Positions 32,006 through 34,084 of a stretch of DNA of 34,296 nt are shown here, in pieces (the first letter of the stretch is position 1; each line of letters opens with the position of its first letter). The DNA is from Hymenobacter sp. GTDB taxonomy: Bacteria > Bacteroidota > Bacteroidia > Cytophagales > Hymenobacteraceae. The notes beneath the pieces were generated by a model that was given only the letters and a program-made list of their open reading frames with translations, did no database searches and was not told the origin of the DNA. The stretch spans positions 1 to 34,296 of the forward strand of contig JANYFQ010000179.1 of NCBI GenBank assembly GCA_025362615.1. The letters run 5' to 3'. A program made the position numbers and the translations under genes.

Positions 32006-32145
32006 CGCGGGTTTTCAACCCGCGACGAGCGCAGCGAGTGTTTCGCGGCTGAGTTGGCGTAAGCACCGGCGCAAGGGTTGTACCATTCAACGAAGCCAAC
32101 GCAAGCCACTCGCTGCGCTCGTTGCGGGTTGAAAGCCCGTGCTAC
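32002..32145. repeat. REP/BIME-like pair: two 39-nt arms in inverted orientation (32002-32040 / 32107-32145, 36/39), each starting GTAG followed by a palindrome
   Basis: GTAGCGCGGGTTTTCAACCCGCGACGAGCGCAGCGAGTG vs reverse complement of the right arm GTAGCACGGGCTTTCAACCCGCAACGAGCGCAGCGAGTG. Confidence 0.88.
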
Positions 32146-32173: not shown

Positions 32174-32887
32174 ATGAAGCCTCCTCATTTCCCGGATTTA
32201 ATTATTTTCGAAAACGACGATTACGTCGTCGTGAACAAACCGCCGTTCCTCGCTTCGCTTGACGAGCGCGTGGGCGGCGCGCCCAACCTGTTGCGCCTCG
32301 CCCGCCAACACTACACCGACATTCAGCCCGCCCACCGCCTCGACCGCGACACCAGCGGTGCCATGGCCCTGGCCAAGCACCCCGAAGCCTACCGCCACTT
32401 GGCCATGCAGTTCGAGAGCCGCGAAGTCAGTAAGCAATACCACGCCGTGGTGTGGGGCACCCCCCAGCTCGATAACGTGCTGGTGCAGCGCAATATCGAA
32501 ACCACCAGCCGGGGCAAGGCCCGCCTCGCCTACAAGGGCAAGGAGGCCGAAACCCGCTTCACTACCCTCGAAACCTACGCCCGCCACGCCCTCGTGCTGG
32601 CCGAGCCCATCACCGGCCGGATGCACCAGATTCGTCTGCATCTCCAGTACCTGCAAGCCCCCATCGTGGGCGACCTGGCCTACGGCGGCGAAGATTTTTA
32701 CCTCTCGTCCCTCAAAAAGAAGTTCAATTTGAAGGACGGCGAAACCGAACAGCCCTTCATCAAGCGCTTCGCCCTGCACGCCCTGCGCCTCAAGTTTGCA
32801 GGGCTCGACGGAGCCGAAATCGCGGTGGAAGCGCCTTACCCGAAGGATTTTCGGGTGCTGGTGGAGGTGCTGGGACAGGCGCGGTAG
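32174..32887 (+). CDS. RluA-family pseudouridine synthase
   Basis: IIFENDDYVVVNKPP...AHRLDRDTSGAMALAKH (HRLDxxTSG) ...ITGRMHQIRLHLQYLQAPIVGDLAYGG. Confidence 0.95.
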   Translation: MKPPHFPDLIIFENDDYVVVNKPPFLASLDERVGGAPNLLRLARQHYTDIQPAHRLDRDTSGAMALAKHPEAYRHLAMQFESREVSKQYHAVVWGTPQLDNVLVQRNIETTSRGKARLAYKGKEAETRFTTLETYARHALVLAEPITGRMHQIRLHLQYLQAPIVGDLAYGGEDFYLSSLKKKFNLKDGETEQPFIKRFALHALRLKFAGLDGAEIAVEAPYPKDFRVLVEVLGQAR

Positions 32888-32912
32888 ACAAACTTTTTTC
32901 GGAAGGCCGTCG

Positions 32913-32920
32913 TACCTTTG
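32913..32920 (+). promoter_or_regulatory. TACCTTTG -7 element for the candidate ncRNA
   Basis: gtcgTACCTTTGtaacaac, exact match to TAnnTTTG. Confidence 0.6.
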
Positions 32921-32925
32921 TAACA

Positions 32926-33028
32926 ACAAAAAAATCGGTGTTAAAACCTTTCGGTTTAACCCCCTGCGTAAATCCTAGGTAGCCCAACGAAACACCCGTG
33001 GCTCTAGGCGCAAGCGCAGGGGGTTTTT
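32926..33028 (+). ncRNA. Candidate ~100-nt structured small RNA with intrinsic terminator
   Basis: Hairpin GTTAAAACC-TTTC-GGTTTAAC (32940-32960); long stem CCCCCTGCG (32960-32968) / CGCAGGGGG (33015-33023) followed by TTTTT; internal stem CCTAG(GT)AGCC (32974-32984) / GGCT-CTAGG (33000-33008). Confidence 0.6.
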
Positions 33029-33035
33029 CGTGCCA

Positions 33036-33422
33036 TTACAAGTCGACAACGCCCAAGTCATAAAAATTGACCAAATCCGGGGTTTCGCGTACGTAAAGCC
33101 AAATCAGGTACACCGTGCCGTTGAGTTCGTGCCGGGTTTCGAACCTGTGAATGAAGATGCCGGGTCGGGGTGGTACGTGGTTGTCGGCCTCTTTGCCCAA
33201 GTAAACGGCCTTCGACAAGATGACGGGTAAGTCAACAAGTGCCAAAGTCCGCAAATGGGTGTTGGGATACCGGCGCGAAATGCAGTGCTTCACGCCTTTG
33301 CGATTGATTATAATTGCTTTGTAAAGCGCAGGATGCGTAACGCAGGTGCCTGATAGGGTATCTAATACCCGGGCCTGCAACTGCCGACGTTCTGTGTCGG
33401 AAGGAATGGGATTGGGTTCCAT
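33036..33422 (-). CDS. Small protein resembling LPD3/BECR-type (phage polyvalent-protein nuclease-like) domains
   Basis: IIINRKGVKHCISRRYPNTHLRTLALVDLPVILSKAVYLGKEADNH...FIHRFETRHELNGTVYLIWLYVRETPDLVNFYDLGV resembles LPD3/PBECR patterns recalled from memory. Confidence 0.5.
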   Translation of the reverse strand: MEPNPIPSDTERRQLQARVLDTLSGTCVTHPALYKAIIINRKGVKHCISRRYPNTHLRTLALVDLPVILSKAVYLGKEADNHVPPRPGIFIHRFETRHELNGTVYLIWLYVRETPDLVNFYDLGVVDL

Positions 33423-33526
33423 GGGGTTTCTGTTTTCACTATTCTAGTACGAAACCCAGCCGTCCCTCTCCTTATGATGCGCCCCGTAATCGGTGCTGCC
33501 CGGTTGCAGATGTTTTGCGAAGGTAG

Positions 33527-33631: not shown

Positions 33632-34084
33632 ATGGACCACCTGAGCTTCAAGACGACCCACGTCAACAAGGCCAACGCCCACAAAAGCTGGGTCATCGTC
33701 GATGCCAGCGTCGCCCCGCTCGGCCGCGTGTGCAGCCAAATCGCCAACATCCTGCGCGGCAAGCACAAGCCCTCCTTCACCCCCAACTCCGACTGCGGCG
33801 ACAACGTGATTGTCCTCAACGCCGACAAGGTGCGCGTGACGGGCAAGAAACTGACCGAGAAGGTGTACATCACCCACTCGGGCTACCCCGGCGGCCAGAA
33901 GCGCCGCAGCCTGCGCGAGCAGATGAACCGCGACTCGCGCCGCGTCATCGAGCACGCCGTGCGCGGAATGCTGCAAGGCAACCGCCTCGGCGCTGAGCAG
34001 TACCGCAATATGTACGTTTACGCTGGCACCGAGCATCCGCACGAGGCCCAGCAGCCCCAGGCAATTGAACTGACCAACCTGTAA
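33632..34084 (+). CDS. rplM: 50S ribosomal protein L13
   Basis: SWVIVDASVAPLGRVCSQIANILRGKHKPSFTPNSDCGDNVIVLNADKVRVTGKKLTEKVYITHSGYPGG. Confidence 0.97.
   Translation: MDHLSFKTTHVNKANAHKSWVIVDASVAPLGRVCSQIANILRGKHKPSFTPNSDCGDNVIVLNADKVRVTGKKLTEKVYITHSGYPGGQKRRSLREQMNRDSRRVIEHAVRGMLQGNRLGAEQYRNMYVYAGTEHPHEAQQPQAIELTNL

Follow-up and report, generated by a model that had tools for sequence, protein, structure and literature searches.

A candidate small RNA facing an LPD3-domain gene in Hymenobacter and the recurrence of such gene-RNA pairs in phages and bacteria

Does the gap downstream of an rluA-type gene in a Hymenobacter sp. contig hold a small RNA gene and, if so, what would its product act upon? 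For this stretch of DNA (34,296 nucleotides, hereafter the window), an initial annotation had proposed a compact, structured non-coding RNA equipped with a promoter and terminator of its own. The promoter element, hairpin, 9-bp closing stem, inner helix and T5 run that it described are all present at the positions named. The gap that the candidate fills is bounded on the right by a gene that is convergent with the candidate and encodes an LPD3 domain, and this gene had been missed. Very probably the candidate is a genuine small RNA, placed tail to tail with this LPD3 gene, and the pairing of gene and RNA is well supported. In the feature list below, the promoter element, terminator arm and T-run were read from the sequence, the 5' hairpin from sequence and fold, and the inner helix from the fold.

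32174..32887, plus strand: rluA-type pseudouridine synthase gene, left flank (Pfam PF00849)
32913..32920, plus strand: promoter -7 element TACCTTTG, of the Bacteroidota TAnnTTTG type
32926..33028, plus strand: predicted small RNA of about 103 nt, from its fold and a layout common to other LPD3 loci
32940..32960, plus strand: 5' hairpin GTTAAAACC-TTTC-GGTTTAAC
32960..32968, plus strand: closing stem, 5' arm CCCCCTGCG, 9 bp, extendable to 12 pairs (AACCCCCTGCGT)
32974..33008, plus strand: inner helix, CCTAG/CTAGG and AGCC/GGCT
33015..33023, plus strand: closing stem, 3' arm CGCAGGGGG, the terminator stem
33024..33028, plus strand: T5 run, end of the intrinsic terminator
33036..33422, minus strand: LPD3-domain gene, 128 aa, putative toxin (Pfam PF18798)
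33518..33525, minus strand: possible LPD3 promoter element TACCTTCG, 7/8 identical to TACCTTTG, judged on sequence only
33632..34084, plus strand: rplM (ribosomal protein L13), right flank (Pfam PF00572)

The candidate RNA and its locus

The 5' end of the RNA (32926) is an inferred position, about 6 nt 3' of the TTTG of the promoter element, for which no -33 TTG element was obvious. Three copies of TACCTTTG were found in the window against 0.6 expected, the other two lying just upstream of rluA and rplM. Base 32960 is common to the 5' hairpin and the closing stem, whilst the arms of the inner helix are formed by CCTAG (32974-32978) with CTAGG (33004-33008) and by AGCC (32981-32984) with GGCT (33000-33003). 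Folding of a 108-nt stretch gave an energy of -40.5 kcal/mol, relative to -25.9 +/- 3.5 in 200 dinucleotide shuffles (z -4.1), none of which was as low. The opinion that the RNA is not an SRP, 6S or tmRNA agrees with Rfam covariance models, which returned no match in the window at the gathering score and nothing relevant at a relaxed threshold. The hairpin was also considered as an integron attC site or a REP element, and both readings were dropped because the motif order is wrong and the sequence is single-copy. That the RNA encodes a small immunity peptide was likewise rejected, there being no ATG inside the window RNA, and the part conserved in relatives being a covarying hairpin.

The product of the convergent gene matched PF18798 with an E value of 5e-14 (52.9 bits, relative to a gathering cut-off of 27), and its stop codon lies 7 nt past the T-run. 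It was the only LPD3 copy found among 120 genomes of the genus, and no close relative was identified in the genus, genome contigs, viral contigs, phages or plasmids; in the LPD3 tree it sits on a long branch whose position is uncertain, and no other member is more than 27% identical to it. The RNA sequence is likewise single-copy in its source genome (4.28 Mb, 720 contigs, 81% complete). BLAST searches for homologues of the RNA gave only short chance matches in the 119 other genus genomes and a family sample of 205, as they did in phages and plasmids, and the closing-stem pattern had three matches in genome contigs, all on unrelated contigs. Conservation beyond one strain was therefore not borne out at the level of primary sequence, which is confined to one genome amongst the genus genomes and family sample; because of this, support for the window RNA comes from recurring architecture and context and not from homologues.

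Although rluA and rplM are neighbours across the genus, the content between them varies. In the nearest relative, with an rluA 95% identical, a 490-aa membrane protein is encoded there instead, and neither the RNA nor LPD3 was found at this site in the 119 other genomes. A conserved RNA of the rluA-rplM site was thus rejected, relatives having other genes or nothing there; as these relatives lack both, the RNA and LPD3 share the same pattern of presence and absence. The interval itself (window 32888-33500) is about 140 bp in many genus genomes, and 1.7-2.3 kb with other genes in others. A MITE-like inverted repeat, TTTTCAACCCGCGACGAGCGCAGCGAGTG ... CACTCGCTGCGCTCGTTGCGGGTTGAAA, was also observed at window 32020-32145, between a sensor kinase gene and rluA.

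Recurrence of the gene-RNA pair at LPD3 loci

LPD3 genes elsewhere in the order were compared together with C-terminal LPD3 domains of phage MuF-like proteins. At these other LPD3 loci the same opposite-strand layout was seen, consisting of TAnnTTTG, a long closing stem and a U-run that lies against the LPD3 stop codon or overlaps it. A convergent TAnnTTTG 40-135 nt past the stop codon was found in 17/19 Bacteroidota LPD3 clusters and in 28/368 other genes (Fisher 8e-16), and the motif combined with a closing stem of at least 8 bp in 15/19 clusters and 6/368 other genes (Fisher 5e-19). When the viral and g58 loci, which have many close members, were left out, motif and stem were found in 7/9, and in 6/8 with the window also removed. 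The LPD3 genes of L096 and L097 were without such an RNA. The window RNA has this architecture, with TACCTTTG located 123 nt past the LPD3 stop codon, a 12-pair stem and T5 ending 7 nt from the stop. With the layout recurring at LPD3 loci far above the control rate, a compact structured RNA with its own promoter stands as the best reading, and the proposal that the closing stem doubles as the terminator gains support from the recurrence of the U-run abutting the LPD3 stop codon. The window RNA in all likelihood belongs to this LPD3-RNA module. Rfam gave no match on the LPD3-associated RNAs of 17 relatives; an RT-3 RNA (RF03068, 153.8 bits) was seen near a gut-phage LPD3 gene (L122 1886-2033).

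These counts bear upon a simpler reading in which the window holds no RNA gene, the stem being a bidirectional terminator shared by rluA and LPD3 with a chance TACCTTTG upstream. Such a terminator would account for a strong plus-strand stem with T5, for a second hairpin before T7 on the minus strand, and for a sequence confined to one genome. Against it, a promoter and stem lie by the stop codon in so few control genes relative to LPD3 genes, the other TACCTTTG copies in the window mark gene starts, and in relatives the strand is specific to the RNA, which together render a shared terminator improbable.

Searching from the RNA gave a concordant result. A pattern comprising the promoter and hairpin of the phage RNAs had 55 matches on 54 viral contigs, and these were called structured on the hairpin and closing stem alone. 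All 26 structured matches faced an LPD3 ORF, and no structured match was without LPD3 (Fisher 7e-8); the remainder comprised 19 unstructured matches without LPD3 and 10 LPD3-bearing matches below the structural threshold. Whilst the fold and promoter alone would suit any small RNA, including a trans-acting regulator that lies beside LPD3 by chance, this independent role is very unlikely given that the RNA-first scan yielded structured RNAs only beside LPD3, and that RNA and LPD3 are both missing from the window site in relatives. The same pattern had no match in the 395 bacterial genomes of a class sample, and the phage subclass is therefore rare in bacterial genomes. On one phage contig two consecutive LPD3-RNA pairs were observed, and another carries a second downstream RNA copy without a second LPD3 (loci L231 / L134 and L132 / L247). 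An RNA nearly identical to that of L233 was also found at L253 1513-1560 with no LPD3 ORF detected beside it, possibly an orphan antidote RNA.

Within genus g58 (48 genomes), whose counts are not independent because the genomes are related, 10/10 genomes with a stand-alone LPD3 carried the RNA, one of the ten LPD3 genes (L114/L146) being frame-shifted. Eight further genomes (L143, L147, L149-L154) carried the RNA hairpin without an intact LPD3; one of the eight retains only the last 13 or so LPD3 residues, and in L154 the hairpin is now a nearly perfect palindrome. The TAnnTTTG element was kept in 10/10 LPD3-bearing and 2/8 LPD3-less genomes (Fisher 0.0015), so that the promoter is lost where LPD3 is gone, and the hairpin sequence persists after the loss of both. 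Such persistence is not what a pure antidote role predicts, unless the losses are recent. It was also considered that the RNA could be a co-factor or guide required for LPD3 activity, since association alone carries no sign of the effect; however, RNA without intact LPD3 in eight g58 genomes, and stand-alone LPD3 without RNA in none, is the pattern usual for antidotes, and a co-factor is accordingly the most improbable of the readings considered.

The pair is not limited to the Bacteroidota. Convergent hairpin RNAs were also found at LPD3 loci of Helicobacter prophages, Neisseria, Burkholderia phage BgManors32 and phage WC36-2, and the gene with its facing RNA thus recurs in phages and bacteria of three phyla. 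Promoters of these RNAs outside the Bacteroidota were mostly of the sigma-70 type, TAGAAT or TATAAT boxes replacing TAnnTTTG at the Helicobacter, L284, Burkholderia and WC36-2 loci. The Helicobacter and Neisseria RNAs have a common core, GGGUUAAAUGCUU...AAGCUAUCCC, that is absent from the window RNA; a 19-base pattern of this core matched three viral contigs, 3/3 of which carried LPD3. The Burkholderia-phage and WC36-2 RNAs have another core in common. RNA class was clustered on the LPD3 tree, with 6 changes compared with a shuffled mean of 11.6 (0/200 as low). Two 2.17-Mb Neisseria gonorrhoeae records listed as plasmids (NZ_CP119142.1 and NZ_CP119140.1) look like chromosomes.

Covariation, strand and the central hairpin

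Covariation across relatives, proposed as a check in the initial annotation, was present in the relatives' RNAs along with strand-specific G-U pairs, but the window RNA has no homologue with which to be compared. In 28 phage RNAs, both-sided changes occurred at 5/7 pairs of the central stem, with a covariation score of 0.464 relative to 0.189 +/- 0.029 when shuffled and at most 0.135 in slid versions; only the outer pairs are informative here, because the search pattern fixed the innermost three pairs in most rows. A first set of 12 RNAs, mostly gathered before the pattern was used, scored 0.485 vs 0.229. In the closing helices, G-U pairs outnumbered A-C pairs by 76 to 17 in viral loci and by 10 to 1 outside phages, an excess that would follow from the RNA being the strand that converges on LPD3.

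In the phage subclass the hairpin carries a 7-nt loop, UUG(C/U)AGU, with A-U and G-C as its closing pairs. The nearest tRNA arm, from three genomes of the phylum, was that of tRNA-His (UUGUGGU, 6/7 loop bases), and the arms of tRNA-Tyr and tRNA-Cys have U33 and G34-Y35-A36 in common with the phage loop. Cys and Tyr were dropped as the preferred target tRNA, as the host tRNA comparison places tRNA-His nearest. From its sequence the phage-subclass hairpin fits a mimic of an anticodon arm, though such 7-nt loops are too common for this to amount to proof. Loops in other RNAs were UUGCAAC or UUGCAUC (g58) and CUGUA (L094). An anticodon-like hairpin was looked for in the window RNA and not found, its inner loop being a 7-nt AAACACC, closed by a 3-bp ACG/CGT, that is not anticodon-arm-like. 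Nor did the window RNA match the covariance model R1 of the viral RNAs at E <= 1, and a local similarity between it and the RNA of L091 (p 0.005 by shuffling) is too slight to carry an argument.

The position of the conserved hairpin also bears upon an antisense role similar to type I systems, in which the RNA would pair with the LPD3 transcript at the 3' end of the latter and so govern its stability or translation, the fold serving only termination and RNA stability. The convergent layout is as expected of antisense control, the 3' arm of the RNA abuts or enters the LPD3 coding end in many loci, and the C-terminal lysine runs of several LPD3 proteins are, by their sequence, the antisense of the terminator U-run. 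However, conservation and covariation are strongest in the central hairpin of the RNA, a part situated past the LPD3 stop codon, and at L284 and for the second RNA of L132 the RNA is about 100-200 nt away from LPD3, so that an antisense role alone appears unlikely.

A possible antidote role and its relation to known systems

LPD3 is a domain of 'polyvalent' proteins of phages and conjugative elements, noted alongside PBECR RNase domains in a 2017 description in which most LPD domains were left without function (PMC5512222). AlphaFold models of the window LPD3 and one phage LPD3 had pLDDT values of 85-86 (85.5 for the window protein), and neither matched a solved structure in the PDB at E <= 1e-3; because no solved structure matches confidently, RNase activity of LPD3 is a guess from the company that it keeps. 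The most suggestive match was a weak resemblance of the phage LPD3 to chain 7m5f_C of a CDI system (probability 0.95, TM 0.40). We envisage LPD3 as a small, probably RNA-targeting toxin domain, which may stand alone or form the C-terminus of phage MuF-type head proteins.

We favour, with moderate confidence, the interpretation that the window RNA and the convergent LPD3 gene are partners in a two-component module of a toxin and an RNA antidote. A short RNA would be transcribed from its own promoter toward LPD3 and would fold into a closed hairpin, the closing stem also acting as terminator; its 3' end would fall at the LPD3 stop codon or slightly within the gene. The folded RNA would likely bind LPD3 and inhibit it directly, in the manner of type III toxin-antitoxin systems. 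The inner hairpin is the presumed recognition element, and the inhibition may be reinforced by antisense pairing to the 3' end of LPD3 mRNA. That the window RNA has an antidote function acting through its fold, as we infer by extension from its better-supported relatives, seems rather probable. We suggest only tentatively that these are widespread phage and bacterial modules in which the antidote mimics the RNA substrate of the toxin, the anticodon-arm-like hairpin of Bacteroidota phages perhaps being a tRNA decoy, and other LPD3 subfamilies, that of the window RNA included, using other hairpins.

Type III toxin-antitoxin systems (ToxIN and its kin) resemble the proposed module in combining a protein toxin with a small structured RNA, here proposed to block it, and in their presence on phages and mobile elements. 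Their antitoxin RNAs consist of tandem repeats, are encoded upstream of the toxin and co-transcribed with it, and are processed by the toxin itself. At LPD3 loci, by contrast, one hairpin RNA (occasionally two) has its own promoter and faces the gene, and LPD3 is an unrelated domain; the window RNA is single, convergent and downstream of LPD3, and so lacks the type III hallmark of a tandem-repeat RNA upstream of the toxin. In convergent type I toxin/antisense-RNA pairs the genes likewise lie tail to tail, their 3' ends overlap, and a terminator hairpin marks the junction. Most type I toxins are small membrane peptides held in check through base pairing, whereas the conserved part of the LPD3 RNA is a folded hairpin outside the overlap.

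Several LPD3 loci are C-terminal domains of phage proteins in regions similar to those of the MuF polymorphic toxins of temperate phages, which carry C-terminal toxin domains on head proteins with an antidote gene directly downstream (PMC5576092, PMC11699363). Immunity to MuF toxins is described as protein-based (PMC11699363), encoded by the adjacent gene, whereas the candidate antidote here is an RNA of the opposite strand. The polyvalent-protein LPD3 and PBECR description concerns the same Pfam family, PF18798, but no mention of an associated RNA was encountered there (PMC5512222). No description of an LPD3-associated RNA, or of a tRNA-like RNA antidote to a phage toxin, was found in open-licence PMC papers, and because the scope was these papers only, this is weak evidence of novelty. 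The recurring pair, with its frequent anticodon-like hairpin, hints at a kind of RNA antidote not yet described. Few RNAs act as antidotes to protein toxins, and phage polymorphic toxins have, in the papers cited, proteins as their immunity factors. A compact RNA that repeatedly faces a single toxin-like domain across three phyla, its promoter being of the type used by the host phylum and its hairpin resembling a tRNA arm in one large subclass, offers a direct and cheap test of RNA-based immunity; it would also predict the target of an uncharacterised domain family, and name an RNA family absent from Rfam. At one locus (L092, reverse complement 1050-1863), LPD3 was observed directly 3' of an HTH (XRE-like) gene, an order resembling that of protein antitoxin operons.
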